IMG/VR virus record: IMGVR_UViG_3300027805_000090
Span: 1 to 22,893 of that record
Length of the DNA: 22,893 nt
Direction: 5' to 3' (one strand)
Origin: a virus
In this document: positions 2,316 through 22,673 of the stretch, one piece after another
Layout of the letters: the number at the start of each line of letters is the position of its first letter
How positions within the stretch are numbered: the stretch's first letter is position 1
Notes under the pieces: generated by a model
What the model saw: the letters and a program-made list of their open reading frames with translations, nothing else
Database searches by the model: none
What the model was told of the DNA's origin: nothing
Translations under genes and position numbers: made by a program

Positions 2316-2323
2316 ATATTTAT
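2316..2323 (+). promoter_or_regulatory. ATATTTAT candidate late promoter, upstream of the coiled-coil gene
   Basis: Exact octamer in the 78-nt gap after the gp15-like gene, 37 nt before the ATG at 2361. The same octamer recurs in seven other gaps of this window, usually at similar spacing. No -35-like element is visible, as in T4-type late promoters. Promoter function is inferred from position and recurrence. Confidence 0.55.
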
Positions 2324-2360
2324 AGATGTTACATTTTACAATTTTATTAGAGGTTTTATT

Positions 2361-2669
2361 ATGGAAGAACAAACAATGAATGTTGAACAAGTTGGTTTAA
2401 AACTTGAAAAAGAATTTGTCCAAGAAGACATTGATTCCGTTAAAAATTTACAAAGAGGTTATGCTAAAACTACTGCTCAAATAGGACAGATTGAAGTAGA
2501 GTTGCACATACTTACCAAAAGATTAGAACAGATGAAAGAATTTAGAGAAAAACTTTTTTCCGATTATGCCGATTTACAAGAACAAGAAAGTAATCTTGTT
2601 AAAACATTAAATGAAAAATATGGCGATGGTGTATTGGATTTAGACTCTGGAAAATTTATTCAGTCCTAA
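2361..2669 (+). CDS. Small coiled-coil protein, function unknown
   Basis: A 102-residue protein with a good AGAGG ribosome site 7 nt before the ATG; a second in-frame ATG lies five codons later. Residues about 20-90 form an almost unbroken run of heptad-like, Glu/Lys/Gln-rich sequence with hydrophobics at helical spacing (for example IGQIEVELHILTKRLEQM), so a coiled coil is very likely. There is no cysteine, no signal peptide and no membrane segment. It has candidate promoter octamers on both sides and so may be transcribed on its own. It sits between the gp15-like gene and the sheath gene, where T4 has its terminase genes. A scaffold or assembly chaperone for the tail is possible, but I do not recognise the family. 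Confidence 0.7.
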   Translation: MEEQTMNVEQVGLKLEKEFVQEDIDSVKNLQRGYAKTTAQIGQIEVELHILTKRLEQMKEFREKLFSDYADLQEQESNLVKTLNEKYGDGVLDLDSGKFIQS

Positions 2670-2692
2670 TATAGTTTTGATGTTTTTGTTTC

Positions 2693-2700
2693 ATATTTAT
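2693..2700 (+). promoter_or_regulatory. ATATTTAT candidate late promoter, upstream of tail sheath
   Basis: Exact octamer 37 nt before the GTG start of the sheath gene, the same spacing as at 2316. Flanks read TTC on the left and ATGCA on the right. Function inferred from recurrence. Confidence 0.58.
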
Positions 2701-2737
2701 ATGCATATTTCATTCTATAATTTTATGGAGATAATAA

Positions 2738-5176
2738 GTGGCTAATGAAAGAATTGTGAGTCCTGGAGTATTTACTAATGAAATGGATATGTCATTCCTT
2801 CCACAAGGGATTGGTAATATCGGTGCTGCTCTCATAGGACCAACGCTTAAGGGACCTGCGTTTGTCCCTACGGTTGTTAATAATTTTAATGACTTTATTG
2901 TAAATTTTGGCAATACATATGAACAATCGTATCTACCCTATACTGCTAAAAACTATTTGAATAATGCTGGTAGTACAACCATTGTTCGTGTACTTGGATC
3001 AGGTGGATATTCTCTAAAACATCCAATAGCACTTGTTGCTACTGGTTCATGGGGTAAAAAACTGATTTCTTTCTTACACCCAACATTTGTTGTTACTAAT
3101 TCCGATGCAACATCATTGTTTGCTAACACAACAGTTAGTGCAAACAATAGTGGTAGTTTTGTATTGACAGTATCCGGTGGATTCTCAACTGATACTTCAT
3201 CATTTACAAATGCTACAAGTGAGAATGGACTTGCATTTAGTGCTTCAATAGATCCAGAATCAACTTCATATATTGGCGATTTGTATGGATATAATGCATA
3301 TGGAACACATGCTGTTTACAATTATGTATCATTTAAACAACAGGCATCTGCTTCATTGGCAGCTGATGCGGCAACAACTATATTGATTGAAACAGGATCA
3401 GCTGGTTCTCCTTGGGACTTCACAACTGATTATTTACAGGCAACAACACCTTGGATTACTTCTCAAAAAGTTGGAGCAATAAAATCAGACTTGTTTAGAC
3501 TACATACAATTTCTCATGGTATTCATTCAAATTATGAAATAAAAGTTGGTATTGCAAATGTTAGACCCGCCGGAACAATAGCCGGTTCAGAGTATGGTGA
3601 TTTTGATGTGGTCGTTAGATTTGTTGATCAATCTAAATTACCACACACACCTTTTACATATGAAGATGAAGATTTGCGTCCAAATGTTATTGAATCATTT
3701 AAGTGTAACTTGGATCCAAATTCACCTAAATTTGTTTCACGTGTAATTGGTGATAGATTTATTACAATTACAAATACTGGTAAAGTTGTTGTTAATGGTG
3801 ATTATACAAACAAATCAAAATATATTCGTGTAGAAGTAACCGAGGCAGTTGCTAATGGTAGTGTTTCTTCAACACTGGTTCCTTTTGGATTCCGTGCTTT
3901 AAAATCACCAATACCATCTGCTTTCACACAACCACCTGCAGCTACATTTGTAACTGATCAAACAGTAGCTGGTGCTTACAATAGACGTGTTTATTGGGGA
4001 TTTGATTATGATTTCGCAAATAGTGACAATTTCAATTATTTGAGACCATTGCCTATTAGTGATAATCAAACAACTGGATCAAATGCAGATTTCTATTTGG
4101 GTGATTATCAACAAAATGCTGCTGCTAGTTTCCCATCAAGTGCAACTGCGTATAGTTCATCTATTGACTTATCTACAAATACTGCACTTGATTCTCGTAA
4201 ATTTATGATTCCATTCCAAGGTGGATTTGATGGTCATAAACCAAATCTTCAAAAGAAACTCGGTTCAAATATAGAAGCCGGAAATACACAAGGATTTGAT
4301 ATTTCAAATTCAACATCAGATGGATACACTGCTTACAAAAAGGCACTTGATACTATTTCAAATGCAGATGAATTTGATATTAACATGATTGTTACACCTG
4401 GAATAGTTCATAGATTACATTCTGCTATAACCAATTATGCTAAAGATGTTTGTGAGGATCGTGGTGATGCGTTTTATGTAATGGATTCCGTTGCTTATGA
4501 CGATAATATTTCAACTGCAGTTTCTGCTATGGAAGGATTTGATAGTAATTATACTGCTACTTATTATCCTTGGGTTAAAATAGTTGATTTTGACAGAAAC
4601 AAACCAGTATGGGTTCCACCTTCTGTTGTTCTCCCTGGTGTAATTGCTTTCAATGATCGTGTATCTGCTGAGTGGTTCGCTCCTGCTGGTTTGAATCGTG
4701 GTGGATTGACCGATGTTGTTGAAGTTAGAACAAGATTAACACAATCTGAAAGGGATTCATTATATGAAGGTCGCATCAATCCTATTGCAGTATTCCCATC
4801 AACGGGCGTTTGTGTTTGGGGTCAAAAAACATTGCAAGGTAGACCTTCTGCTCTTGACCGTATAAATGTTCGCCGTCTATTGATTGCTGCTAAGAAGTTT
4901 ATTGCGTCATCTACGAGATACCTTGTATTTGAACAAAATACTTCACAGACACGATCAAGATTCTTGAACATCGTTACACCATATTTGGAGTCTATTCAAC
5001 AACGTCAAGGATTGTTTGCTTTCCGTGTTATCATGGATGAAAGTAATAATACTCCGGAAATTATAGATAGAAATATCCTTTACGGACAATTGTATCTACA
5101 ACCAACAAAGACTGCGGAATTTATCATTCTTGATTTCAATATTCAGTCTACTGGTGCCGCATTTCCCGGTGCTTAA
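2738..5176 (+). CDS. Tail sheath protein (gp18-like), contractile tail
   Basis: An 812-residue protein. The start is GTG at 2738, supported by GGAG at 2727-2730 with a 7-nt gap; translation then reads MANERIVSPGVFTNE, the usual sheath N-terminus. Residues 7-90 (SPGVFTNE, then GNIGAALIGP and the TAKNYLNN / TIVRVLG strand) and residues about 600-812 (INVRRLLIAAKKFI, RYLVFEQNT, then YLQPTKTAEFIILDF) match the two ends of the conserved sheath fold. The sheath surrounds the tail tube and contracts to drive it through the host envelope. T4 gp18 has 659 residues; the additional 150 or so lie in the middle, probably as surface-exposed inserted domains. It has its own candidate promoter and is followed by a strong terminator, so it is probably a single-gene transcript made in large amounts. 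Confidence 0.93.
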   Translation: MANERIVSPGVFTNEMDMSFLPQGIGNIGAALIGPTLKGPAFVPTVVNNFNDFIVNFGNTYEQSYLPYTAKNYLNNAGSTTIVRVLGSGGYSLKHPIALVATGSWGKKLISFLHPTFVVTNSDATSLFANTTVSANNSGSFVLTVSGGFSTDTSSFTNATSENGLAFSASIDPESTSYIGDLYGYNAYGTHAVYNYVSFKQQASASLAADAATTILIETGSAGSPWDFTTDYLQATTPWITSQKVGAIKSDLFRLHTISHGIHSNYEIKVGIANVRPAGTIAGSEYGDFDVVVRFVDQSKLPHTPFTYEDEDLRPNVIESFKCNLDPNSPKFVSRVIGDRFITITNTGKVVVNGDYTNKSKYIRVEVTEAVANGSVSSTLVPFGFRALKSPIPSAFTQPPAATFVTDQTVAGAYNRRVYWGFDYDFANSDNFNYLRPLPISDNQTTGSNADFYLGDYQQNAAASFPSSATAYSSSIDLSTNTALDSRKFMIPFQGGFDGHKPNLQKKLGSNIEAGNTQGFDISNSTSDGYTAYKKALDTISNADEFDINMIVTPGIVHRLHSAITNYAKDVCEDRGDAFYVMDSVAYDDNISTAVSAMEGFDSNYTATYYPWVKIVDFDRNKPVWVPPSVVLPGVIAFNDRVSAEWFAPAGLNRGGLTDVVEVRTRLTQSERDSLYEGRINPIAVFPSTGVCVWGQKTLQGRPSALDRINVRRLLIAAKKFIASSTRYLVFEQNTSQTRSRFLNIVTPYLESIQQRQGLFAFRVIMDESNNTPEIIDRNILYGQLYLQPTKTAEFIILDFNIQSTGAAFPGA

Positions 5177-5185
5177 ATAAATTCA

Positions 5186-5219
5186 ATGGGGAGTTGAAAA
5201 ACACTCCCCATAATTTTTT
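5186..5219 (+). terminator. Intrinsic terminator after tail sheath
   Basis: A 9-bp stem ATGGGGAGT / ACTCCCCAT (5186-5194 with 5203-5211), 8-nt loop, followed by a run of six T at 5214-5219. It lies 10 nt after the sheath stop codon and just before the next candidate promoter. Confidence 0.85.
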
Positions 5220-5228
5220 AAAAGTTTT

Positions 5229-5236
5229 ATATTTAT
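5229..5236 (+). promoter_or_regulatory. ATATTTAT candidate late promoter, upstream of tail tube
   Basis: Exact octamer 31 nt before the tail tube ATG and 10 nt after the T-run of the sheath terminator. Function inferred from recurrence in the other gaps. Confidence 0.55.
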
Positions 5237-5267
5237 TAAAAAGAATAATTTTAATCTGGAGATATAA

Positions 5268-5756
5268 ATGGCTGAATTAGTTAGTGCAAATGAGATTTTT
5301 TTCACACCATTTGAACCTAAATTACAGAATCGCTTTATTATGTATATCGAGGGCGTTCCTGCTTATTTGGTAAAAGGTGCGGGAAGACCAAACATCAGTT
5401 TTAACCCAATTACACTTGATCATATAAATGTCAAGCGTAAAGTTAAAGGAAAGGGTGAATGGCAAGATATTACAATTAAATTATATGATCCAATCGTACC
5501 ATCTGCTGCTCAGGCAACAATGGAATGGGTACGTTTGTCACACGAATCTGTAACAGGTCGTGATGGTTATTCTGACTTCTATAAGAAGGATATATCATTA
5601 CACATTCTTGGTCCAGTTGGTGATAAAGTTGAAGAATGGACATTGAAAGGAGCATTCATCACCGGAACAACTTTTGGTGATATGGATTGGGCAAATGATG
5701 CGTTTGTTGAAATTTCTTTGACACTCGCTTATGATTATGCTATTCTACAATACTAA
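5268..5756 (+). CDS. Tail tube protein (gp19-like)
   Basis: A 162-residue protein, almost exactly the length of T4 gp19 (163 residues), directly downstream of the sheath as in most contractile-tailed phages. The ATG has a TGGAG ribosome site 6 nt upstream. The sequence fits the tube fold: an N-terminal strand NRFIMYIEGVPAYLVKGAG, a loop region with the basic HINVKRKVKGKGEWQ segment, strands ITIKLYDPI and DISLHILGP, and a final WTLKGAFI...FVEISLTLAYDYA. The rings of this protein form the rigid inner tube through which DNA passes. It has its own candidate promoter and is closed by a hairpin at 5794-5823. Confidence 0.92.
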   Translation: MAELVSANEIFFTPFEPKLQNRFIMYIEGVPAYLVKGAGRPNISFNPITLDHINVKRKVKGKGEWQDITIKLYDPIVPSAAQATMEWVRLSHESVTGRDGYSDFYKKDISLHILGPVGDKVEEWTLKGAFITGTTFGDMDWANDAFVEISLTLAYDYAILQY

Positions 5757-5793
5757 TATTATTGGTATTCTAATAGTAAAATTGAAATAAAAG

Positions 5794-5828
5794 TATGGGC
5801 ATACTATTTTAGGTATGCCCATATTTAT
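5794..5828 (+). terminator. Hairpin terminator after tail tube, overlapping a promoter motif
   Basis: An 11-bp perfect stem TATGGGCATAC / GTATGCCCATA (5794-5804 with 5813-5823) and an 8-nt loop, beginning 38 nt after the tube stop. The T-rich stretch after it (TTTATGTTTG) is interrupted, so termination may be leaky. The last three bases of the stem are the first three bases of the octamer at 5821. Confidence 0.65.
5821..5828 (+). promoter_or_regulatory. ATATTTAT candidate late promoter, upstream of the gp26-like gene
   Basis: Exact octamer 48 nt before the ATG at 5877, the longest spacing of the set. It begins inside the 3' arm of the hairpin that ends the tube transcript. Confidence 0.5.
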
Positions 5829-5876
5829 GTTTGTATATTAAAATGTTTTATTTAAAATAATGTTATAGGATTAGTT

Positions 5877-6743
5877 ATGACAAAAATTCCAACCGGTTAT
5901 GAACAACCTTTAGATCAACAAATGTCAGACGATGAAATAAAAGACAGATTGATGTCTGAATACAAAACTACCGAAGTAAAAAAGACAAATTTCCCAACGG
6001 AAACAGTACCATTGCCTTCAAAAGGATATATTTATCCTCCAGATAATACACTCGCCTCTGGTGTAGTAGAAATGAAATACATGACTGCTAAAGAAGAAGA
6101 TATTTTAACTTCACAGAATCTTATTAAGCAAGGTGTGGTATTAGACAGATTGTTTGAGTCTTTGATTGTTAGCCCTATTAACTACAACGATTTATATGTA
6201 GGTGATAAAAATGCAATCATGGTTGCGGCTCGTGTATTAGGATATGGCAAAGATTATGTAATCGAAGTGGATGATCCATTTTCTCCAGGAACAAAACAAA
6301 AAATAACAATAGACTTAACTCAAATCGAGCACAAGGAGGTCGATTATAGCTTATTTGAGGCTGGAAAAAATGAGTTTGATTTTGAATTGCCTATATCTAA
6401 AAGAGTTGTTACATTTAAATTGATGACACATGGAATGGAAAAACAAGTTCAAGCTGAAATTAAATCGATGAACAAAACACTTGTTAAAACAGGAATTGAT
6501 AGAGAATTAACAACAAGACTCAAACATATTATTACCGCAGTTGATGGTGAAACTGGTAGAGCAACTGTAAACAATTTTGTTGATAATGAACTTTTTGCTT
6601 CAGATTCTAGAGCATTAAGGCAATATATTAAATCAATATCACCAGACCTTGATTTAACATATACTTTTATTTCAGATGCAACAGGTCAGGTGAAGGAGAT
6701 GGATATACCGATTGGGGTATCATTTTTTTGGCCTGGGAACTAA
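5877..6743 (+). CDS. gp26-like baseplate assembly protein / tail assembly chaperone
   Basis: A 288-residue protein; the ATG has AGGA 6 nt upstream. Residues about 43-120 carry the most recognisable part: VPLPSKGYIYPP, then VEMKYMTAKEEDIL and a helical segment ending VGDKNAIMVAARVLGYGKDY. This is the core of the T4 gp26 baseplate-hub family as found in T4-superfamily phages. A beta segment and a helix with THGMEKQVQAEI follow, ending in FFWPGN. Its place between tube and tape measure is where tail assembly chaperone genes are found in many other tailed phages, so a role in folding or loading the tape measure is as likely as a structural role. The last 32 nt overlap the gp51-like ORF in another frame, with a seven-T run in the overlap. 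Confidence 0.7.
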   Translation: MTKIPTGYEQPLDQQMSDDEIKDRLMSEYKTTEVKKTNFPTETVPLPSKGYIYPPDNTLASGVVEMKYMTAKEEDILTSQNLIKQGVVLDRLFESLIVSPINYNDLYVGDKNAIMVAARVLGYGKDYVIEVDDPFSPGTKQKITIDLTQIEHKEVDYSLFEAGKNEFDFELPISKRVVTFKLMTHGMEKQVQAEIKSMNKTLVKTGIDRELTTRLKHIITAVDGETGRATVNNFVDNELFASDSRALRQYIKSISPDLDLTYTFISDATGQVKEMDIPIGVSFFWPGN

Positions 6744-6951
6744 TTATCGTGTAGGTTTACACGAAGAAATTTTTAGTCTTTGTTATTATGGGCAAGGTGG
6801 TTTTTCTTGGAGCGATGTATACAATCTACCTATTTATTTAAGAAAATTTTATATCAAACAAATTATCAAAATAATAGAAGAAAAAAACAAAAAAGATACA
6901 GAGCAACATAATACAAGAAAAAGAGCAATGCCAACATTTAAGACAAAATAA
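6712..6951 (+). CDS. gp51-like small baseplate assembly protein; may be made by frameshifting from the gp26-like gene
   Basis: The frame is open from 6694 to the stop at 6949-6951, with no ATG until near its end and no GTG; the only conventional start is the TTG at 6712, preceded by AAGGAG at 6693-6698 with a long 13-nt gap. From the TTG it encodes 79 residues. The core VGLHEEIFSLCYYGQGGFSWSDVYNLPIYLRKFY part looks like the small gp51-type baseplate hub assembly proteins that follow gp26 in T4-like phages (in T4 genes 26 and 51 are adjacent). The C-terminus is Lys/Arg-rich. It could be an independent protein or the C-terminal extension of the gp26-like protein after a +1 (or -2) ribosomal frameshift near 6723-6729; a -1 shift would stop at 6752. 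The coding potential is convincing, the start is not. Confidence 0.6.
   Translation: MGYHFFGLGTNYRVGLHEEIFSLCYYGQGGFSWSDVYNLPIYLRKFYIKQIIKIIEEKNKKDTEQHNTRKRAMPTFKTK
6723..6729 (+). other. Candidate programmed ribosomal frameshift site (T7 run)
   Basis: Seven consecutive T bases, read TTT TTT TGG in the gp26-like frame, lie inside the overlap with the gp51-like frame. Slipping +1 (or -2) on the Phe codons continues into the gp51-like ORF up to 6951. Homopolymer T runs serve as slippery sites in other tail assembly chaperone genes. Assigned from sequence and synteny only. Confidence 0.35.
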
Positions 6952-6953
6952 TT

Positions 6954-6989
6954 AAGGTTCGTATATTTATGTATACGAACCTTTTTTTT
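6954..6989 (+). terminator. Strong intrinsic terminator with a promoter motif in its loop
   Basis: A 12-bp perfect stem AAGGTTCGTATA / TATACGAACCTT (6954-6965 with 6972-6983), 6-nt loop, and a run of eight T at 6982-6989. It lies 3 nt after the gp51-like stop codon. The octamer ATATTTAT spans the top of the 5' arm and the loop. Confidence 0.9.
6963..6970 (+). promoter_or_regulatory. ATATTTAT candidate late promoter, upstream of tape measure
   Basis: Exact octamer 35 nt before the tape measure ATG. It occupies the top of the stem and the loop of the terminator at 6954-6989. A transcript starting here would include only the 3' part of that hairpin and could not refold the terminator. Confidence 0.55.
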
Positions 6990-7005
6990 AATTTATATTG
7001 AAACT

Positions 7006-10000
7006 ATGGCAGAAGATATTAGTAGGAGGGATGCCGAGGCCCTCAAAGATTTAAGATCGCAAGAAGTAAATATAACCCGTGAACTCATAGATTTGCGGGA
7101 TAAACTAGTTACATTATCACGTGCCGATGTTATCAATCTAGAAGAAGTTGCAAAAATACAAGCTCAATCATTGCAATTAGAACAACAACGTCAGGGAGTA
7201 ACAAAACAAATAGTTTCAATAACTGGTGACGTATTAGAAACTGATCAAAAAAGAGTAGAAGTTCAAGAACGATCTAATAAAAATGCAGAGGAAGCATTAA
7301 AGGCAACACAGGATGCGTCTAAAATACAATCCGAACAATTAAAAAGAGATAAAGAAAGAGAAATAACATTAAAAAAGTCAAAGGATTTACAAAGAGAACT
7401 TGCCGAGTCGTATGATAAAGTTCAAAAAACTGTTAAAAATGAAAAACAATATGCTGATGAATTATTAAAAATAAAAGGCCAACAGGCCGATGTTGCAAAT
7501 TTAATACAATTTGCTGCACAAAATTCAACGATTGAAGGTGGAGAATTATTAAGAGTAACACAAGAACTTGTAAATACAAGTCAATTGGTTACAACTAATA
7601 TTGCAGAAAGGGCAGTTGCAGAAGCGGCGGCTCGTGAAGGTAAATACACAGAATTGGATATATCAAGAGAAATGCGTGGTATATCAAGAGCGGAAGTAGA
7701 ACTTGAATTTGCTAAAGCAGCCGGTAATGTAGAAACCGCTAAACTTCTTGAAAGAGAAATTTCAATGTTGCAAGAAGAAGTTGCAATAAAGACGGAATCC
7801 AACAAATTAAACGAAGACCTTGCCAAAAAAATGGAAAAGGTTATGAAGACATCAGAAAAGATAAAGGGGGCAATAGAAGCAACGCCCATTGGGGGTTTGT
7901 TGGATGGTATGTCTAGTAGCATAGAAAAACTTCCAGGTGGATCAGCAATAACAAAAGCACTTGGAGTAGACCAAGTAAAAGAAAGTTTAAAAAAGAATTT
8001 AGGCGATACCATGACAAATGTGGTATCTGGATTCCAGCAAGGTGGTATGGCCGGAATGAAAGCCCTTGCAGCCGGAGCAAAATCATTCGGCATGGCTCTG
8101 ATGGCAGGTCCACAAGTTATCATAATCGCAATGGTTGCCGCTGTTGCAGGACTTGTTTCATTATTCAATGGCGCAGACCAAGCAGTATCAGATATACAAA
8201 AAACATTAGGTGGAACAAAAGAACAGGCGGGAAAAACATTAGTTGCTGCACAGGGTATGGCACAGGAAATGGGAATAGTTGGTGTTAATACCAAAGAGGT
8301 TGCACAAGGTATGGCAACTGTGAGTGAACTTATGGGCGGACTTGATGTTGCTACACAAATAAAAGCCGGTAATAAAGAATTAGGACAATTTGTAAAAGAC
8401 GCAACGGTGTTGAGCACAAAGTTCGGAATGAGTACAGAAGAAATTGGAAATATAAAGGCACTAGCAACAATGACTGGTGAATCTATGGGTTCACTTATGC
8501 AAAAAAGTCAAGGTCTTGCAAAAGGTCTTATGACAGATAAAGAGGCAATGAAAACACTTGCATCTGTTCCTAAATCGGTAACAGTTGCATTCAAGGGTGG
8601 ATCCGAAGCATTGATAAAGGCAGCTCAAAAGGCAAAGATGCTTGGTATGGATTTGAAAAAAGTGCAAGATATTGGTGATGGTCTATTGGATATTGAATCA
8701 TCACTCGCCAAAGAAATGGAAGCGCGTGTTATTACTGGTAAACAATTAAATCTCGATACAGCGAGACAATTTGCTTTGAATGGTGATATTGCTGGATTGC
8801 AGGATGAATTGCTAAATCAAGCTGGATCTCTGGAAGAGTTTCAAAATATGAACAGACTTCAACAAAAATCTATGGCAGATGCCATGGGTATGTCTGTTGA
8901 TGAAATGACTGAAATGCTTACAAAAGCTCAAGAGTATAAAGACATTGGATTGGATTCATCTAAAATATCCGATCTTCAAGCAAAAAATGCTAAAGAATTG
9001 GCAGAAATTGCAGCTAATACAAGTAATGCTGAGCAAAAGGCATATATCGAAAAGATGGCAAAAGAAAAAGAAGCATCAACAATGGCAGAAAATCTTTCCG
9101 ATATTATGACAAAGATACAAGAAAAAATAACTGCATTGGTTGCACCATTAGTTGAAGTTATACACGGAATGTTTGATGCTGGTGATGCTGCTGAAGGAAT
9201 AACCGGTGGAATAGATACGGTTGCTTCTGCATTAACTCCTGTGTTTGATATATTATCGGGTGTTGGAAAAATATTATGGACTGTTATTAAAGCATCTTTT
9301 GATAATATATTAAGTATAGTAAAACCAATTTTTAGTGCTGTTAGCGATATATTTTCATCTTTAAGTTCTGGTGCGGAAACTACTGGAGGTCTTTCTGCAA
9401 TATTTGATAAGATAAGTTCTGTATTGGGTACTATTTTTGGAGTTGTTGGTGATGTTGTTGAAATACTTATGACTGGTCTAATATCTCCACTAAAAATGTT
9501 TTATATGGCAATAATAACACCAATTTGGGATGCATTTACTGGTATATTCGATGCATTAACTAAGGCATTTGAGCCACTAATGGGCGCCAATGAAACTGGA
9601 GAAGAAACTGCAGGAATAATGGATACTATAAAAAAAGTATTTGAGCAATTGCAGCCAATAATTGGATTGGTAGGTACACTTATCGGTGGACTTATTGTTA
9701 GACCAATAGAGTTATTTGCAACACTAATAAAAGGCGTTATACAAATATTTTCAGGAGATTTTACTGGTGCAATTGATACATTTGGTAAATACATATTTGA
9801 TTTCTTTTTAGGTATACCGAAAATGATACTCGAATCTATTGCCGGTGCAATAGATGCAATATTTGGGACAAACATAAAAGGTGCGGTAACAGGATTTTTT
9901 GATCACGTTCAAGGTATATTCAATGATATTGTTGAATATGTTATGAACATTGGCAGTTTGATACTTGATTATCTAATGTCACCATTTGATTTAGTATCAA

Positions 10001-11118
10001 CCGTTATAGATGGAATTGTCCAAATGTTTAGTGGCGATTTCATGGGTGGTTTGGAAACAATTGGTGGTGGTATTAAAGATTTCATCATGGCACCTTTTGA
10101 TTTGGTTAGTGGTCTATTTGATAATTTAATGGGAACAATTGGAAAGATAACTGATAAAGTTTCAGGAGCTCTTTCTATTTTTGGAATCGGTGGCGATGAA
10201 GCTGAGGGAGAAACTGAAAAGAAGGCAGAAGAAACGAAGAAGGCTGGATCTGCTAGTCCACAAAAAGAAGCAAGTGCTGGTGCAGGTGCACCTGCAGCTG
10301 AAACAAAATCTGCCGGTGGAGATCAATCTGGCAAACCTGCCGGAGAAGCGAAATCACAGCCCCAAATGGCAACTGGTGCAGTTAAAGGTATGAAATCGCC
10401 GAGTGTAATGAGCGATAAAGAATTAGAAGAAATGGGAAAAACACGCGAAGAATATGAAAGAGAATGGTTTGCACCAATAGGTGCAGCCGCTACTGGTGGT
10501 ATAATTAAGAAGGGTGGAGCAACACTTGTTGGAGAACAGGGTCCTGAAATAGTATCTTTACCACAAGGTTCCGTTGTTTCAAATGCAAGTGCAACTCAAC
10601 AAGTTGGTGCTGCTATGAATGCAATGGGTGGCGGTGCAGAGGGATCAGAGGCAACTGAATCACCGGAACTTTTAGTTTTACAAAGTATGGATTCAAAACT
10701 TTCTGCAATACTGGAACCTTTTCAAAAATTAGGAGAAGCTATAAGTGGTATGGTTGGTATGTTTTCAGGTGGAATAGGATCTTTAGCCGGTGGAATGATG
10801 GGTTCAATCGGAGACACAATAGGTGGTTTATTTGGTAGTTCTGAAACAGAATCTGGATCACCAATAGAACAATCAACAATGACAGCTGGTTCTATGCAAT
10901 CACCTGGAGCAGTTGGTGGTGAATCTGCCGGTGGGGGATCAATAAATCTTTCATCATTAGAATCTAAACTTGACACTATTGCAAATATATTAAATTCGGC
11001 AGCAAATCAACCAACTATAATAAAAGTTGGTGAAAAAGTTATAGAAGAAATAAGATCTAATTTGAGGATAAAGGCAACATATACAACTTCAACGGATAAT
11101 ACGTATGGTAGGGCATAA
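7006..11118 (+). CDS. Tail tape measure protein
   Basis: A 1370-residue protein. The ATG at 7006 lacks a clear ribosome site. Residues 1-300 are charged coiled coil (many Glu/Lys/Gln). A strongly hydrophobic stretch follows at about 361-395 (MAGPQVIIIAMVAAVAGLVS), then more helices, and several hydrophobic amphipathic segments at about 740-1050. Residues about 1062-1122 are an Ala/Glu/Lys/Gly-rich disordered linker. The C-terminal part carries ATLVGEQGPEIVSLPQGS, close to the VGE-GPE motif often seen near the C-terminus of tape measure proteins. The protein fills the tail tube during assembly and sets its length; at about 0.15 nm per residue this predicts a tail up to roughly 205 nm, about twice that of T4. 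It is functionally equivalent to T4 gp29. Four related segments in the 827-1045 region are listed as repeats. Confidence 0.9.
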   Translation: MAEDISRRDAEALKDLRSQEVNITRELIDLRDKLVTLSRADVINLEEVAKIQAQSLQLEQQRQGVTKQIVSITGDVLETDQKRVEVQERSNKNAEEALKATQDASKIQSEQLKRDKEREITLKKSKDLQRELAESYDKVQKTVKNEKQYADELLKIKGQQADVANLIQFAAQNSTIEGGELLRVTQELVNTSQLVTTNIAERAVAEAAAREGKYTELDISREMRGISRAEVELEFAKAAGNVETAKLLEREISMLQEEVAIKTESNKLNEDLAKKMEKVMKTSEKIKGAIEATPIGGLLDGMSSSIEKLPGGSAITKALGVDQVKESLKKNLGDTMTNVVSGFQQGGMAGMKALAAGAKSFGMALMAGPQVIIIAMVAAVAGLVSLFNGADQAVSDIQKTLGGTKEQAGKTLVAAQGMAQEMGIVGVNTKEVAQGMATVSELMGGLDVATQIKAGNKELGQFVKDATVLSTKFGMSTEEIGNIKALATMTGESMGSLMQKSQGLAKGLMTDKEAMKTLASVPKSVTVAFKGGSEALIKAAQKAKMLGMDLKKVQDIGDGLLDIESSLAKEMEARVITGKQLNLDTARQFALNGDIAGLQDELLNQAGSLEEFQNMNRLQQKSMADAMGMSVDEMTEMLTKAQEYKDIGLDSSKISDLQAKNAKELAEIAANTSNAEQKAYIEKMAKEKEASTMAENLSDIMTKIQEKITALVAPLVEVIHGMFDAGDAAEGITGGIDTVASALTPVFDILSGVGKILWTVIKASFDNILSIVKPIFSAVSDIFSSLSSGAETTGGLSAIFDKISSVLGTIFGVVGDVVEILMTGLISPLKMFYMAIITPIWDAFTGIFDALTKAFEPLMGANETGEETAGIMDTIKKVFEQLQPIIGLVGTLIGGLIVRPIELFATLIKGVIQIFSGDFTGAIDTFGKYIFDFFLGIPKMILESIAGAIDAIFGTNIKGAVTGFFDHVQGIFNDIVEYVMNIGSLILDYLMSPFDLVSTVIDGIVQMFSGDFMGGLETIGGGIKDFIMAPFDLVSGLFDNLMGTIGKITDKVSGALSIFGIGGDEAEGETEKKAEETKKAGSASPQKEASAGAGAPAAETKSAGGDQSGKPAGEAKSQPQMATGAVKGMKSPSVMSDKELEEMGKTREEYEREWFAPIGAAATGGIIKKGGATLVGEQGPEIVSLPQGSVVSNASATQQVGAAMNAMGGGAEGSEATESPELLVLQSMDSKLSAILEPFQKLGEAISGMVGMFSGGIGSLAGGMMGSIGDTIGGLFGSSETESGSPIEQSTMTAGSMQSPGAVGGESAGGGSINLSSLESKLDTIANILNSAANQPTIIKVGEKVIEEIRSNLRIKATYTTSTDNTYGRA
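9484..10137 (+). repeat. Internal hydrophobic repeats in the tape measure protein
   Basis: Four related segments begin at residues about 827, 899, 992 and 1029. Each starts with a Pro preceded by a small or basic residue (SPLKMF, RPIELF, SPFDLV, APFDLV) and continues as a hydrophobic helix. The second and third copies share a Q-(I/M)-FSGDF-G...T-G...DF pattern and lie 93 residues apart. They were seen by eye in the protein; at DNA level they are diverged. Confidence 0.6.
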
Positions 11119-11133
11119 TAATATGTTGTTCAT

Positions 11134-11141
11134 ATATTTAT
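11134..11141 (+). promoter_or_regulatory. ATATTTAT candidate late promoter, upstream of the giant baseplate gene
   Basis: Exact octamer in the 48-nt gap after the tape measure gene, 25 nt before the ATG at 11167, the shortest spacing in the set. The opposite strand reads TATAAATA here. Confidence 0.5.
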
Positions 11142-11166
11142 ATTAAGTTAAAATGGATGTTACTAA

Positions 11167-14100: not shown

Positions 14101-17100
14101 TATGTTCCAGAATCATCTGAATTTACATTCAAAGGAAAGTTTCCACAAACTGGTATAGATTATTTCCCCAATCAAAATCAACCAGGATTTACTTTAAATA
14201 TATTCCCAAAAACTCAAAGTAAAAATCCTGAAACAGAATATCTACACGAAACGTCTGACTACACATTTACAGGAGAGAGACCATCTAAACCTGCAAATTG
14301 GTTTGATATAGAAACATTAAACCAATCTGGATTTACGCAAGATATATTTCCAAGAACTCAAAGTAAAAATCCTGAAACAGAATATAAACATGAATCGTCT
14401 AGATTTGTTTGGGTTGGCACTTTCCCAAAAGAACCTGCAGACTGGTTTGATGTTAGTAAAAGAAATCAAACTGGATTCACATTAAATATAATGCCTAAAG
14501 GTGAATCAAAAAATCCAAACACAGAATATTTTACAGAATCTTCCGATTATGGTTTTACTGGAATAAGACCAGGATCTGGTATAAATTTCTTTCCAGATAG
14601 TAATGCATCTGGATTCACTATGGATATATTTCCGAAAAATGTAAGTCAGAATCCAAATACAGAATATCAATGGGAATCATCTAGATTTGTTTGGGTTGGC
14701 ACTTTGCCTAAATCTGGTGTTGATTATTTTGATAAATCTAAGCAAAATGTAACCGGTGGTTTTACTATGAATATATTTACGTTAGGTGGTCAAAGACCAT
14801 TAACAACGGAATATAAACATACTACTTCACAATATACATTTGCAACACAATTTCCTGCTGGAGAAAATAGATTTCCGGATACTGATGCAACTGGATTTAA
14901 GATAAATGTAATGCCAAAGGGGCAATCACAAAGACCACCAACTGAATATATTGAATCATCCATTGACCGCAGTTCTGGATTTATTGCAAACGGAAATAGA
15001 CCAAAGGATTCAATAAATTTCTTTCCAGATAGTAATGCATCTGGTTTCACTATGGATAGATTCCCAAAAGGAGCATCAAGACCATTGGATGATGGTGAAT
15101 ATATTAAAGAATCATCTTTGCTTGATTTTAATGGAATTTTGCCTCCAAATAAATCACATTTTTGGTTTGATAGTGCCCAAACACAAGAAGCGGGTTTCTT
15201 GTTACAAATGAACGATGGTGAAACTATTTATCCAATAATAAGTCCAAGATTAAAATATAATGCTGGAAATACAGAAAGACTAACAACGTCAGCTGCACGT
15301 TTATTATCAATAAGTACAGATGACACCACATTTCAAACTTATGCTCCGCTATCATTAGGAGACAGACCTTGGCAAAACGGTAAATTTGCAACATTATTAA
15401 ATCAAGTTCCTGAAATAAAAACAGAAGGACAAGTATCATCTTACAAAAATAAATACGATACATTAGTTTCAAGTTTTAAAGATGATATGAGTAACTTAAA
15501 AATCTACGGTGATGATAAAGGAAATATTGATAACGAATATGAAAAAGGTGAATATTGGAGTTGGGGAGTAGACAAACCATTTATTATCAGAGATATAGGT
15601 GATACGTATGGAACCGGAACAGACCTATTTGAAGATGTTAGAGACGAAGATGCTGATAGAATACAACAATGGATTGATTCAACAAAAGGTCAAAAATGGA
15701 TAACTTTACAGAATGAGTTATACAAGAAAAATCCATATGTTGATTCCCTTTCATTTGGTAGTAAACCACAGACTAAAATATTTAATGAAGATTCTATAAT
15801 TGATGTAATAGAAGGACAGGATTCAGATTTAAAAGAATTGATAGCAAGACATGGTGACGGCGATTTAGACAAATATGAAGAAGTTGCCGCATCCATGAAT
15901 CCACCAAAAGATGATGATATGAAATTTATTCCAGTTGGTTCGGATAGACCCAATGTCAGTGATCGATTTGCGTATAAGAAAAATCGTTTGATTGCTCTCG
16001 TTGGTGAAATGTTACCGTCTGTTTTAACGCCAATAAATAAAGATAAAACTAGTGGAAAATATACACCTTTGAAAGATATAAGTTCTGGAGATGGAAAAAT
16101 ATATCGCGTATCTGATCCTGAAAATAATTCTCAATTACAGATACATCGTGCTAGTCACCCTTACCAAGAAAATAAAAGATACAATACAATGGGTGTTGAT
16201 ATAACCGATGAAAATTATCCAGATACAGCCAAAAGGCATACTTTTTATGGTGGTTCAAAAAGAGATAATGCCGGTACTGCTTTTGATAATACATCTACTT
16301 TTGATTATTCATATTATGGAAGATTGAAAGGACTACATAACAGTATACAGGATGAAGGCAAAAAAATAGATGGTTTATTGACTGCATTATCATACTTAAT
16401 GGGTGGTGCTAAACTTAAAGGCGATACTTCCAATTATACATATGAAAATTCAATTTTAGATATACAACCTAATTCGCAGAAAATAATAGTAGAAAAATTG
16501 AAAGGTCCTGTTGATCCACAATATATTTCATTGGATGATAGAATACGAGCAATAACATATGCTAATTTTACACCTAGCGGTAAAAAAATATTAAATGGTC
16601 CACCCAGTGGGGAATTTGCTGATACTGCTCCAGAAAAACAATATTCAACTGTTGCTTATTCAAAATTGAAAAGAGTAGATGCCGGTGTTGCAAATAGATC
16701 CAGAGATTACAATGATTTCAGACATGATATAGAAAATCTTTCAAATACAGATAAAACCAAAGGAACTGTTCCAGGGTTATTTTCTGCTGATCCAACTATT
16801 ATAGATTTTGCTAATAACAATCTAGAAACCAAATATGGATTTGGTAAACATGGAAAAGTTGGTGCCGATAAAAGTAAACCAAATGTAACAAATGTTACAT
16901 ACGAGGCACTTTCTGGTGGAGGAGGGGCATCAGCTGCTACACCAACACCGCCAATGACACAAGTTAAATTAAAAGATCCTAAAAAAGAATTTAGGGGTGA
17001 TAGAATAAATTTAATTGACTACAAACGTAAATCAACTGGACTATTAACTGAAAATGAAATATATGAAATAAACAATAATGGATTAAAAGGAACAAAGGAT

Positions 17101-18279
17101 TTAGTAACATTTTATTTTTCAAGTGCTAGATTGGTTGGTGGTCCTCTTGGACCTGCTGAAGCTATTGTTTTTCGTGCTACATTTGACAGCATATCTGATA
17201 ATCATAAACCTTCGTGGAGTCCAGTAAAATACATGGGTAGAGGAGATCCAATTTATACATATGAGGGATATGAGAGAGATGTTAGTTTCGGATTTACAGT
17301 TCACATCGGATCTCGCGATGAAATGAAAGCAACTTGGAGAAAATTAAACTATTTGGCATCATGGACTGCTCCGGAATATACTGGCGGTGGTATGATGCGT
17401 GCGCCTATTTGTAGACTTAATATAGGACATCTGTATAGAAAAGTTCCTGGTTTCATAAATTCTTTAAGTTATACATTTGATAATGTTAGTAATACATGGG
17501 AAACCGCAGGATTAAAAGATGATATGAACACTAGTGGTGATTTTGCACCCGGCGTATTACAATTGCCAAAAACTGTTCAAGTATCATGTGGATTTACTAT
17601 ATTCGGTGTATATCGACCAGAGAAAAATTCTGTATTCTATTCATTGTTTGATGATGATGAAACAGGAATATCACCTAAAAATGCTAACAAAGTTAATTAT
17701 TTCCGGGCAATTGAACAAGGCAGTGGTATAGGAGGTTCTGATCCGAATGATGATTATGTTGCAGTTCCAATTGGTGCAACAGATGTTCCATATGGTAAAC
17801 AACCCGCATTAACAACTGCGCAGGCAAGAGCACAGGCAGCTTCTGATCAAGCTTCTGCTAACGCAGAAATAGTTGCATTACAAAGAAGTGATGGACTTGA
17901 TGGTCCAGAAGACTTTGATGGCACTGGAGGAACGGGCGGAACATTGCCGTCTGATGTTCGTTTAAAGAAAAATATAAGACCAATAGAATATGGATTGAGT
18001 CAAGTATTAAAATTAAATCCAGTTCATTATGAGATGAAGTCATCTGGTAATGGTGAAGTTGGATTTATCGCCCAAGAATTGAAGAGTATATTACCAGAGG
18101 TTGTTTTGGGTAAAGAGGGTGACATAGAAAAAGGTGAAATATTGACAGTATCATACGGTCATATGGCCGCGGTATTAACAAAGGCAATACAAGAACAACA
18201 ATCAATTTTGGATTATCAGTCCAATAGAATAGACGAATTGGAAACTATAATTAAACAAATTATTGAAAAAAATGAATAG
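11167..18279 (+). CDS. Giant repeat-rich baseplate / tail-tube-initiator protein with C-terminal S74 intramolecular chaperone
   Basis: A 2370-residue protein. From N to C: four tandem 20-residue repeats (31-110); a Pro/Asn-rich region with about 34-residue repeats (190-347); about 20 repeats of 43-48 residues (436-1359); a region I do not recognise (1360-1930); a baseplate domain (about 1935-2170) with RINLIDYKR, DLVTFYFSSARL, FRATFDSISD, YTYEGYERDVSF, GGMMRAPICRLNIG and KVPGFINSLSYTF, resembling tube-initiator proteins of large myoviruses; a Gly/Ala linker; and a Peptidase_S74 domain from 2262. S74 domains help fibres and spikes trimerise and then cut themselves off. The expected Ser/Lys pair is present (SDVRLK: Ser2262, Lys2267), so cleavage before Ser2262 would remove the last 109 residues, which end in a predicted coiled coil. 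ATG with a weak GGAT site. Position between tape measure and hub fits a baseplate role, perhaps including host contact. Confidence 0.8.
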   Translation: MALIDLKSDLSRYRSPASSDEVSVPNPTQKPVTDQITAYLNKTKHDDIKKPTPKSITSLLNTTYLDEIEQPIRTNVVTRLTTTNLDNIQKTVTASLFSKLGSTKLDDVVKLDPKRPKLVDRYASRKPADDSASYRSAPLNEQTSVLVNSVSNLSPLVTNTSTFSNPIPLEEITSALSTINVFDNTSNFQNPTDIKINKPIPGQNNNESSIDITRSVLSGDLEDTSPDITKNPREQSNNIVNPDVDIPIPEQSFNRQEQSVVINKDLLTPIGNITNPLIRIERKPLSINRESQAFEFNKSRVFPDDDIVNPEIEIIKPPQTFDRRSESPDIILDVPTQGIVVDPKTKVLRVDQSSIHFEDGSNLNIDKLPIRYTAVSELEKMVNEVIFAPIRYSGDSQLETDRSNLNLDVKPKTLLSGRHEDPSESNYAILGYQEVNFFTNRFATGFTHKQQIGDSKYIGDSQFSWVGPTESSPFTNFFSDANARGFRTFMDASETLYLTNSSLLGFFKPSGVNYFDVGKKNTTSGFSVSAMPSMTEYKTESSLLGWTGNKEAAPTVNYFDLGNPKTKDGFTKFHVLGDSKYISDSSDLNWDGNGQAAPSVNYFDLQGQHTTAGFHAYAGFLDSKYITDSSQFDWDGPVALTNAPTVNYFDMMNFHTTSGFTAFVQQGISNYVDGSSIFQWSGPSANAPAVDYFDIAYNFTDEGFHTFAQKGITKYIEDVSAYTWYGSREDVRGVNYFDLTKKNTTEGFHILATFGETKYIHESSFYTWKGNAQKPPVVNYFDLTNVVTTAGFHANAAFLETKYKKDASQFDWDGNRDAVPNVNYFDLNNTYTRVGFHSFAVIKDSKYISDSSLYTWKGLPQDSPTVNYFDQNNVFTSEGFHRFASLLESKYVKESSEFDWDGPKQNAPAVNYFDQNFTYTSDGFHILATPLESKYVEESSRFDWDGPKEKSPETDFFDRNKQFTTVGFHRLAEFKITKYVPESSEFTFKGKFPQTGIDYFPNQNQPGFTLNIFPKTQSKNPETEYLHETSDYTFTGERPSKPANWFDIETLNQSGFTQDIFPRTQSKNPETEYKHESSRFVWVGTFPKEPADWFDVSKRNQTGFTLNIMPKGESKNPNTEYFTESSDYGFTGIRPGSGINFFPDSNASGFTMDIFPKNVSQNPNTEYQWESSRFVWVGTLPKSGVDYFDKSKQNVTGGFTMNIFTLGGQRPLTTEYKHTTSQYTFATQFPAGENRFPDTDATGFKINVMPKGQSQRPPTEYIESSIDRSSGFIANGNRPKDSINFFPDSNASGFTMDRFPKGASRPLDDGEYIKESSLLDFNGILPPNKSHFWFDSAQTQEAGFLLQMNDGETIYPIISPRLKYNAGNTERLTTSAARLLSISTDDTTFQTYAPLSLGDRPWQNGKFATLLNQVPEIKTEGQVSSYKNKYDTLVSSFKDDMSNLKIYGDDKGNIDNEYEKGEYWSWGVDKPFIIRDIGDTYGTGTDLFEDVRDEDADRIQQWIDSTKGQKWITLQNELYKKNPYVDSLSFGSKPQTKIFNEDSIIDVIEGQDSDLKELIARHGDGDLDKYEEVAASMNPPKDDDMKFIPVGSDRPNVSDRFAYKKNRLIALVGEMLPSVLTPINKDKTSGKYTPLKDISSGDGKIYRVSDPENNSQLQIHRASHPYQENKRYNTMGVDITDENYPDTAKRHTFYGGSKRDNAGTAFDNTSTFDYSYYGRLKGLHNSIQDEGKKIDGLLTALSYLMGGAKLKGDTSNYTYENSILDIQPNSQKIIVEKLKGPVDPQYISLDDRIRAITYANFTPSGKKILNGPPSGEFADTAPEKQYSTVAYSKLKRVDAGVANRSRDYNDFRHDIENLSNTDKTKGTVPGLFSADPTIIDFANNNLETKYGFGKHGKVGADKSKPNVTNVTYEALSGGGGASAATPTPPMTQVKLKDPKKEFRGDRINLIDYKRKSTGLLTENEIYEINNNGLKGTKDLVTFYFSSARLVGGPLGPAEAIVFRATFDSISDNHKPSWSPVKYMGRGDPIYTYEGYERDVSFGFTVHIGSRDEMKATWRKLNYLASWTAPEYTGGGMMRAPICRLNIGHLYRKVPGFINSLSYTFDNVSNTWETAGLKDDMNTSGDFAPGVLQLPKTVQVSCGFTIFGVYRPEKNSVFYSLFDDDETGISPKNANKVNYFRAIEQGSGIGGSDPNDDYVAVPIGATDVPYGKQPALTTAQARAQAASDQASANAEIVALQRSDGLDGPEDFDGTGGTGGTLPSDVRLKKNIRPIEYGLSQVLKLNPVHYEMKSSGNGEVGFIAQELKSILPEVVLGKEGDIEKGEILTVSYGHMAAVLTKAIQEQQSILDYQSNRIDELETIIKQIIEKNE
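11257..11496 (+). repeat. Four tandem 20-residue repeats at the N-terminus of the giant protein
   Basis: Residues 31-50, 51-70, 71-90 and 91-110 align without gaps. Consensus features are P/T at position 1, a hydrophobic I/V/L at 6, a conserved L at 10, T at 12-13, a D near 16 and a hydrophobic residue at 18 followed by Q/K. They look like short helical repeats. The copies are diverged at DNA level. Confidence 0.75.
11734..12207 (+). repeat. Pro/Asn-rich repeats of about 34 residues
   Basis: Units begin with N-P (or D-P) at residues 190, 241, 275, 309 and 342; the last four are spaced 34, 34 and 33 residues. Each has NP-x-(I/V)-x-I, one to three Pro residues, a Ser/Thr-rich segment with an (F/I)(N/D)R turn and an acidic S/E patch. 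Likely an extended linker; whether it binds a partner cannot be seen. Confidence 0.55.
12472..15243 (+). repeat. About twenty tandem 43-48-residue repeats in the giant protein
   Basis: Residues 436-1359. Each unit has (N/D)-(Y/F/W)-F-D, a Thr/Ser-x-GF turn, a (S/T)-x-Y strand, an ESS or DSS step and an aromatic W/F followed by -G. Two classes occur. The first (12472-14157, thirteen units, about 44 residues) uses GFH and KY-(I/V)-x-(D/E)-SS with DWDGP. The second (14158-15243, about seven units, 46-48 residues, the last partial) uses GFT-x-(N/D)-IFPK and KNPETEY. The units look like short beta segments of an elongated stalk. Some copies are nearly identical at DNA level. Confidence 0.85.
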
Positions 18280-18281
18280 TG

Positions 18282-18289
18282 ATATTTAT
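18282..18289 (+). promoter_or_regulatory. ATATTTAT candidate late promoter, upstream of the LysM baseplate operon
   Basis: Exact octamer 2 nt after the giant gene's stop codon and 37 nt before the ATG at 18327. This spacing matches those at 2316 and 2693 and supports that ATG over an upstream TTG at 18315. The extended context GATATTTATATT is shared with the site at 22666. Confidence 0.58.
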
Positions 18290-18326
18290 ATTAGTTATGG
18301 TGTAAAACTTTTAATTGGAAAAATAT

Positions 18327-18692
18327 ATGCCAAGTAGATATGATAATGCAGTTCAAATATCTAATGTAAAAAAAACTTCATCCAATGGTGAAACAAAAAG
18401 AGTTACTAGATTAGCAACCGTAAATTATCCAACATTTCCAAATCAAAGAGATGTGTATGTAATATCCCAGCAAGGTGACAGATTGGATAATCTTGCAATG
18501 GAATATTTTGGCGATGAATCGTATTGGTGGGTAATTGCCAGAGTAAACAATTTGGGCAAAGGAACACTTCTTATACCACCCGGAATAACATTAAAAATAC
18601 CGTACTATGATGAACTGTCTGGCATAGCCGCACTATTTGATATGATGGATGATTCCAATTTTACTGATAATGTTTTTGGCTCTATGAGGTAA
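18327..18692 (+). CDS. LysM-like baseplate wedge protein (gp53-like)
   Basis: A 121-residue protein. The ATG at 18327 is preferred because GGAA lies 6 nt upstream and the candidate promoter spacing fits; an in-frame TTG at 18315 would add four residues. Residues about 42-93 form a LysM-type fold as used in phage baseplates: DVYVISQQGDRLDNLAMEYFGDESYWWVIARVN, then an LLIPPG-LKIP ending. In phages this module occurs in T4 gp53-like wedge proteins and in P2 gpX-like proteins that help hold the baseplate around the tube. The C-terminal 25 residues are acidic and probably flexible. The next gene starts 3 nt after the stop with ATGAGG as its ribosome site, so it is the first gene of a three-gene unit ending at 21378. 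Confidence 0.72.
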   Translation: MPSRYDNAVQISNVKKTSSNGETKRVTRLATVNYPTFPNQRDVYVISQQGDRLDNLAMEYFGDESYWWVIARVNNLGKGTLLIPPGITLKIPYYDELSGIAALFDMMDDSNFTDNVFGSMR

Positions 18693-18695
18693 TAT

Positions 18696-20705: not shown

Positions 20706-20706
20706 T

Positions 20707-21378: not shown

Positions 21379-21413
21379 ATTTTATTTTGAATTTATGTAA
21401 AAAATTATTATAT

Positions 21414-21438
21414 TTGGATTATATTATTATCAATCCAA
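21414..21438 (+). other. Small inverted repeat in the leader of the polymerase-like gene
   Basis: A 7-bp stem TTGGATT / AATCCAA (21414-21420 with 21432-21438) with an 11-nt AT-rich loop. It ends 8 nt before the ATG at 21447, which lacks a ribosome site and whose gap lacks an exact ATATTTAT. It may be a weak terminator or affect translation, or it may be chance. Confidence 0.3.
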
Positions 21439-21446
21439 ACTATATT

Positions 21447-22661
21447 ATGATATTCCAAGAAAAACCTTCGGTTTGCATTCCAATTACAACCAATCCAAAT
21501 AAACACCAATCAGTAGTTGGCATTATAGGTATGTATTTTCTATTTATAGACGGAGAAGAACAATACATAAACTTTACACATCCAGACGAAATAGATACAG
21601 ATATTAGTTTGAATGATATTATTTTACACCCAAAAACAATTGTGTTCAATAAAAAGGTGCTTGTTTACAACGGGTTTAATGGTGGTATAGATTTAAATTC
21701 ATATCTTCATTATTACATATCAGACCATATCAACCCACATGAATTTTATCCAAAAGGAATGGAAATACTTGCAAAAAAATTTTACAAGATAGAAGATTTA
21801 GGCCAAGTCATACCACTTTCAAAACAATTTGAATGGGCAAGGAGAATTGCACGGTATGTTATGAAAGTTTATGTAGATAATCCAATTAGTCAAAGTTGTA
21901 TTGATTATTGTAATGATTTCATAAATGTATTCCACGAAATAGAAAGAAACGATATTCTTGTTGGTGATGAATGGAAGAAACAAAACTATATGTGGTATAC
22001 GGCAACAGGTAGACCGAGTAACGCTTTCGATGGTTTTAATTTCTCTGCAATGAATAAGAAAGACGGTAGTAGAGATAAAATCCGTTCAAGATTTCATGGT
22101 GGTAAAATAGTTCAGTTTGATTATGATGCATTTCATATCAAACTACTTGCTAAGATATTGGACTATCAATTTGAATGTCACCCATATGAACAAATACAGA
22201 ATGATTTACATATGGACATGGACTATGATAAATTCAAAGGAAAAGTATTTCAAAACATCTATGGAACAATCACACCTGAATTTATGAACCACACTTTCTT
22301 TAGATCGGTTCAGGCACTCATAGATGAAATGTATTCGATATATGAAAAGAATAACATAGTTAAGTCTTGGTTTTACGAAAAGAATTTCAGAGATATTCAA
22401 GATGCCACGCCCAATAAAGTATTCAATTATGTGCTTCAATCATTAGAAACGGAATACAATGTACGTAAAATAAAAAGCATTCTACCATACTTGAAGAATA
22501 AGAAGTCTGTTTTTATGATGTATCTGTATGATGCATTTATTTTTGATATACATCCAGACGAAAATGATTTAATAGAAACTTTACAGTCTGCACTTGAGAC
22601 TGATAATATGTCAGTAAAAATTTATGCTGGTGACGATTTTGGACACATTAAACAAATTTAA
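21447..22661 (+). CDS. Short, divergent family A DNA polymerase-like protein
   Basis: A 404-residue protein from the ATG at 21447; an in-frame TTG at 21387 would add 20 unlikely residues. Neither start has a clear ribosome site. Family A motifs appear in the right order: ATGR-(P/S) at about residues 186-190; motif A FDYDAFHIKLLAKI with Asp225; a motif B-like K-x-VFQNIYG ending at about 273; N-x-VFNYVLQSLETE resembling the N-x3-Q segment; and motif C MYLYDAFIFD with Asp362, where Pol I has HDE. Both metal-binding Asp positions are kept, but the Glu after the motif C Asp is Ala. The N-terminal 150 residues resemble a degraded 3'-5' exonuclease fold (IPITTN where DTET is expected). The polymerase part is shorter than in Pol I, with small fingers and no obvious thumb. 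It may be an accessory or repair polymerase, one part of a split enzyme, or a non-catalytic relative. Confidence 0.65.
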   Translation: MIFQEKPSVCIPITTNPNKHQSVVGIIGMYFLFIDGEEQYINFTHPDEIDTDISLNDIILHPKTIVFNKKVLVYNGFNGGIDLNSYLHYYISDHINPHEFYPKGMEILAKKFYKIEDLGQVIPLSKQFEWARRIARYVMKVYVDNPISQSCIDYCNDFINVFHEIERNDILVGDEWKKQNYMWYTATGRPSNAFDGFNFSAMNKKDGSRDKIRSRFHGGKIVQFDYDAFHIKLLAKILDYQFECHPYEQIQNDLHMDMDYDKFKGKVFQNIYGTITPEFMNHTFFRSVQALIDEMYSIYEKNNIVKSWFYEKNFRDIQDATPNKVFNYVLQSLETEYNVRKIKSILPYLKNKKSVFMMYLYDAFIFDIHPDENDLIETLQSALETDNMSVKIYAGDDFGHIKQI

Positions 22662-22665
22662 GTTG

Positions 22666-22673
22666 ATATTTAT
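22666..22673 (+). promoter_or_regulatory. ATATTTAT candidate late promoter, upstream of the last gene
   Basis: Exact octamer 4 nt after the polymerase-like gene's stop and 36 nt before the TTG at 22710. It shares the context GATATTTATATT with the site at 18282. Confidence 0.52.

Follow-up and report, generated by a model that had tools for sequence, protein, structure and literature searches.

Why does a single octamer, ATATTTAT, stand in almost every longer gap between the genes of this viral fragment? The window, that is, the whole stretch of DNA analysed, is the IMG/VR fragment IMGVR_UViG_3300027805_000090 (one strand, 22,893 nt, 22.9 kb). An earlier note had listed eight intergenic copies and one coding copy on the + strand, with their distances to the start codons, and had read the intergenic ones as a late promoter set. 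Our exact search and the gap sequences gave the same sites and distances (Table 1), and eight of the nine gaps of at least 45 nt (622 nt in total, with ATG starts taken at 18327 and 21447) contain the octamer. The coding copy is probably a chance occurrence; a minus-strand copy at 19770, within a gene, had gone unmentioned. Over the whole window the excess was only mild (10 copies vs 5.3 expected, 6/100 shuffles), and thus the signal is the placement of the octamers in the gaps. When the nine gaps were shuffled 20,000 times with dinucleotides preserved, the mean was 0.63 octamers and the maximum was 5.

The window contains tail genes, including those for sheath, tube, baseplate hub, tape measure, and tail fibre/baseplate. 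Its closest annotated relative is Microcystis phage Mel-JY01 (PP395634, 190 kb), and the best matches of its sheath include Mel-JY01, Flavobacterium phage immuto, and Rhodothermus phage RM378. Terminase, portal, capsid, sheath, and tube are common to the relatives of the window and RM378. To judge from these matches, the window is a piece of a Far-T4-type myovirus, kin of these three phages. The Far-T4 group has been described (PMC4360716) and tied to Bacteroidetes (PMC7198788); in the former paper, T4 transcription-regulation genes were undetected in Far-T4, and transcription control was recorded as missing. Gene order pairs the gene near 22710 with Mel-JY01 51674-52063 as its orthologue, and that Mel-JY01 gene too is preceded by an octamer, at 42 nt. 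A 79-aa ORF (6712-6951, start TTG) overlaps the hub gene by 32 nt; the family search gave no match for it, and its counterpart is a 78-aa Mel-JY01 gene at the same place that resembles one in relative G006.

Table 1. Octamer sites and genes in the window, and candidate sigma loci in annotated phages. Distance is from octamer to start codon.
Feature	Position	Strand	Predicted +1	Start codon	Distance (nt)	Basis
Octamer	2316..2323	+	2328 (G)	ATG 2361	37	exact match, purine rule
Octamer of tail sheath gene	2693..2700	+	2705 (A)	GTG 2738	37	relatives
Tail sheath protein	2738..5176	+				Pfam PF04984, PHROG 23
Octamer of tail tube gene	5229..5236	+	5241 (A)	ATG 5268	31	relatives
Tail tube protein (gp19 family)	5268..5756	+				Pfam/PHROG profile search
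Octamer of baseplate hub-like gene	5821..5828	+	5833 (G)	ATG 5877	48	relatives
Baseplate hub-like protein	5877..6743	+				Pfam/PHROG profile search
Octamer copy within hub gene	6028..6035	+				exact match
Octamer of tape-measure gene	6963..6970	+	6975 (A)	ATG 7006	35	relatives, hairpin
Tail tape measure protein	7006..11118	+				profile search
Octamer of tail fibre/baseplate gene	11134..11141	+	11146 (A)	ATG 11167	25	exact match
Large tail fibre/baseplate protein, 2370 aa	11167..18279	+				family search
Octamer of baseplate wedge gene	18282..18289	+	18294 (G)	ATG 18327 or TTG 18315	37 (ATG 18327)	
Baseplate wedge gene		+		ATG 18327 or TTG 18315		gene family search
Octamer of gene starting near 22710	22666..22673	+	22678 (A)		36	exact match
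Candidate sigma, Mel-JY01	158764-159534					
Candidate sigma, immuto	78174-78872					
Candidate sigma, RM378	17032-17826					

We counted the octamer in 80 IMG/VR relatives, picked by their sheath, jointly with the window. Octamer sites of relatives share ancestry and their counts are therefore not independent (within-genome tests are less affected); read in this way, ATATTTAT ranked first among gap 8-mers, with 384 sense and 2 antisense copies there and 58 sense and 9 antisense copies inside genes. The octamer is far more frequent in gaps than within genes, as had been proposed, and its strand follows the genes; in minus-strand genomes, its orientation flips along with them. An exact octamer was found upstream of the sheath gene in 79/79 relatives with enough upstream sequence, upstream of the tube gene in 70/72, of the hub gene in 59/61, and of the tape-measure gene in 11/11. 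Among 44 distinct versions of the sheath upstream region, all eight octamer columns were invariant, and most columns further downstream were about 45-75% conserved. An unbiased EM motif search ranked (T)ATATTTAT(A) top in five of seven relatives; the octamer motif was not ranked first in Mel-JY01 and was ambiguous in G006.

Within single genomes, we compared the gaps of the structural blocks with those elsewhere. The late motif (the labels ‘early’ and ‘late’ rest on gene class, not timing) was found in 13/36 structural-block gaps of Mel-JY01, 14/34 of the 177 kb relative G002, and 11/37 of immuto, vs 6/110, 3/27, and 7/101 gaps elsewhere, where some octamers precede genes outside the structural blocks (Fisher’s p = 1.7 × 10−5, 0.011, and 0.0011, respectively).

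The remaining genes are marked by another motif. Bacteroidota sigma-A promoters have TTTG at −33 and TAnnTTTG at −7 (PMC7366714, PMC9723704). Many gaps of non-structural genes in G002 carry TTTG-N~20-TATATTTGT, and the forms are CTTGCAT...TAAATTTG in Mel-JY01 and GTTGC...TATATTTAG in immuto. A TTG stands 23-24 nt 5' of the early −7 box at 14/19 sites in Mel-JY01 (in all 14, exactly 24 nt before TAnnTTTG), 14/23 in G002, and 15/16 in immuto. Within the structural blocks, this host-like motif was found 0, 1, and 0 times in Mel-JY01, G002, and immuto. The late (T)ATATTTAT and the early (T)ATATTTGT are one base apart, A replacing the final G, and the same genomes have the A form in late gaps and the G form in early gaps. 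In Mel-JY01 and G002, the early sites have the TAnnTTTG −7 box; the octamer sites have neither this box nor a −33 TTG/TTTG at fixed spacing. Purine bias gave no clear +1 for the early sites. The earlier note had found the octamer set and missed this second class in the same genomes. The hosts of the octamer-bearing Far-T4 clade are most likely Bacteroidota.

The absence of a −35 (or −33) element at the octamer sites, remarked on before, is borne out by alignments and a TTG scan. When 69 octamer sites of three genomes were aligned, the columns 5' of the octamer carried next to no information, and TTG was found there at about chance level in five of six genomes, that is, without a −33 box; the exception was immuto (7 vs 3.1 expected, without fixed spacing). 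The strongest column outside the octamer in the 69 sites was the fifth base 3' of it, a purine (85% vs 55%, p = 1.2 × 10−7). This base was a purine in 88% of sites in G001, 83% in G011, and all 7 of the sites scored in the window; immuto, with 75% purine at +12, is not significant taken alone (p = 0.12). The distance to the start codon had a standard deviation of 12.7 nt, vs 162 nt for the distance from the upstream stop. Transcription probably starts at the purine five bases after the octamer. With this purine as +1, the octamer would occupy −12 to −5, which is the placement of the flavobacterial −7 box register (PMC9723704).

Several octamers lie near hairpins. The terminator-like hairpin of the sheath gene (5186-5211) is upstream of the tube-gene octamer, and a hairpin GGGCATAC...GTATGCCC is immediately 5' of the hub-gene octamer. 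The tape-measure octamer falls within a terminator-like hairpin (6954-6983; −16.8 kcal/mol, z = −6.7), where it lies across the loop and the upper stem. The stem of this hairpin has compensating variants in relatives (TTCG/CGAA vs TCCG/CGGA). A transcript from the predicted +1 at 6975 would hold only the 3' arm and so would escape termination, and read-through from upstream would be stopped at this hairpin. The octamers at 18282 and 22666 begin 3-5 nt past a stop codon, with no hairpin. Several relatives without the hub-gene hairpin retain the octamer, which speaks strongly against a role of the octamer as part of a hairpin or terminator.

Which factor could read such sites? A gp55-like late sigma factor had been suggested. 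The standard gp55 profile (phrog_234) had no match at E 1 in Mel-JY01 and the long relatives, and the Sigma70_r2 profile also found nothing in these genomes. When the gp55 profile was compared with about 115 conserved core families, there was a sole outlier, a candidate sigma of 243-256 aa that Mel-JY01, immuto, and RM378 share with hundreds of uncultured relatives. With 41 diverse homologues, hhalign aligned 105 co-linear columns (Prob 81, E = 1.2 × 10−5; about 10−3 corrected for the families tried) between gp55 4-113 and the N-terminal half of the candidate, corresponding to sigma-70 region 2. A diverged gp55-like candidate is there on profile-profile comparison, one that standard profiles miss. 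Sigma70_r2 was weakly matched by 11/41 members (best E = 0.0013). An AlphaFold model (pLDDT 82, pTM 0.45) gave fold matches in the PDB and viral structure libraries that were mostly sigma factors, including T4 gp55 (7d7c_F), almost all of them weak (best E in the PDB 0.19, not significant); at the sequence level, scanning the PDB with the profile of the candidate gave nothing useful. Two other Mel-JY01 loci, 27548-28147 (199 aa) and 78230-78784, were tried as sigma factors and dropped. The annotated sigma of RM378 was rejected as the factor of the clade; it has no counterpart in Mel-JY01 and the long relatives. No shared clamp-binding tail was seen between the C-termini of the polymerase and the candidate sigma. 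A clamp candidate (Mel-JY01 75755-76507) is placed by synteny only, and PHROG and Pfam name no function for it. A T7-type RNA polymerase (PF00940) had no match in Mel-JY01 and the long relatives, in a search run without a positive control.

Among 50,697 phage records, the candidate sigma was found only in Mel-JY01, four immuto records, RM378, and LR756508. The last is a jumbo phage (484 kb) with a Far-T4 sheath and a homologue of 47% identity; no ATATTTAT was found in the gaps of the 49 kb read (190000-239000) of this unannotated record. It perhaps has an unusual genetic code. RM378 has a distant homologue and an annotated ECF-like sigma; the word that it uses is related at best (ATATTTAA/TATTTAAA). 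As far as these two phages go, the distributions of motif and candidate sigma fit imperfectly. An unbiased search in RM378 gave tTTATTTAAA in about 50 gaps, including those before sheath and tube; its sense bias is weak (23 vs 13, 11 shared), and it is possibly a sister late promoter. Among MAG contigs with a candidate sigma homologue, 7/14 are labelled Bacteroidota. Such contigs are also held by MAGs labelled archaea, Actinomycetes, and Gammaproteobacteria, and these are most likely misbinned phage contigs.

It is likely that the octamers are Far-T4 late promoters with a ATATTTAT core, read by a diverged phage sigma factor. The earlier reading as a late promoter set is supported by the enrichment, the strand, the placement before virion genes, the purine, and the lack of a −33 box; promoter activity, late timing, and recognition of this octamer by the candidate sigma are what we infer from sequence. 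In the proposed mechanism, ATATTTAT would be the single core element of virion-gene promoters across a large Far-T4 clade. Host RNA polymerase, reprogrammed by the phage sigma factor, would read it on the coding strand at roughly −12 to −5, making no contact at −33, and would begin transcription at the purine five bases past it, with resulting leaders of some 30 nt. Non-structural genes would be served by the unmodified host holoenzyme via TTG(−33)/TAnnTTTG(−7) promoters. The best candidate for the sigma factor would be the 243-256 aa protein with the gp55/sigma-70 region 2-like N-terminal half. We put forward, tentatively and as a doubtful extension, that one protein combines this region-2 half with a helical domain at the C-terminus that takes over the role of gp33, and that the late promoter is a one-base shift of the host −7 box without −33 rather than an inherited TATAAATA.

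Alternatively, without any phage sigma, host polymerase, either unmodified or assisted by an activator, might use the octamer as a weak −7 box for host sigma-A. The single base between the late and early forms, the weakly defined −33 box of Flavobacterium (PMC7366714), and the failure of standard sigma profiles in these genomes would all fit; however, the same genomes split the A and G forms between late and early gaps, each promoter class goes with its own class of genes, in five of six genomes the late sites have a −33 box about as often as chance predicts, and the clade has kept a gp55/sigma-2-like protein, so that we regard this explanation as rather unlikely. An element of the 5' leader RNA, or an intercistronic processing or terminator tail, would explain why several octamers lie directly after or within terminator-like hairpins, and is improbable given the hairpin-free hub relatives and the sites at 18282 and 22666, the fact that only eight bases, and a purine at a set distance from them, are invariant, and the complementary host-like class at the remaining genes.

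The sites might also be T4-type late promoters on the opposite strand (ATATTTATA reversed is TATAAATAT), giving antisense transcripts, and an A does follow the octamer in 64% of sites, which gives TATAAATA on the minus strand. However, this ninth base is absent at a third of sites, spacing is constant relative to the sense start downstream but not relative to the stop codon upstream, the purine is seen on the sense side, there is no gp55 profile match, and the cyano-T4 phage P-SSM4 has CATAAATA in sense, upstream of + strand genes. We give this arrangement hardly any credence.

The putative late promoters that we prefer can be compared with known systems. T4 late promoters use gp55, gp33, and gp45 (PMC2988020). 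Like these and the cyanophage NATAAATA-type sites, the octamer is a single −10-like AT-rich element with no −35, and as in T4 it stands before virion genes, with one copy for each gene or short operon. In contrast to T4, the sense motif is ATATTTAT and not TATAAATA, a difference overlooked in the earlier note, whose late-promoter reading is otherwise supported, and antisense gap copies are rare (2 vs 384). The candidate sigma resembles gp55 in its small size and in its putative similarity to sigma-70 domain 2, but the gp55 PHROG profile does not pick it up, and it carries an additional helical domain at its C-terminus. With Bacteroidota sigma-A promoters the sites share the core TATTT and the probable position relative to the start, and they differ in the A for the final G and the missing −33 box. 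RM378 has the virion genes and a distant candidate sigma homologue in common with the clade of the window; unlike it, RM378 has an enriched gap word that is TATTTAAA-like and a further ECF-like sigma gene. The jumbo phages phiKZ and AR9 also have short AT-rich late elements, but they use their own multisubunit polymerases, unlike the system proposed here.

We found no earlier report of the ATATTTAT motif in the open-access literature. Far-T4 phages are common in freshwater, and their late gene control becomes directly testable, with a defined putative late promoter, a contrasting host-like class, a candidate sigma, and a cultured model (immuto on Flavobacterium). With the octamer, late genes and the host phylum could also be called from sequence in uncultured contigs.

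Two observations concern Mel-JY01. CTCTCTCT runs and CCCCCGGGGG-rich words show a strong excess in its gaps. Its record names Microcystis elabens as the host, and the promoters of its non-structural genes match the Bacteroidota type; judged by these promoters, the host label may be wrong, and the true host is perhaps a bacterium living alongside the cyanobacterium.
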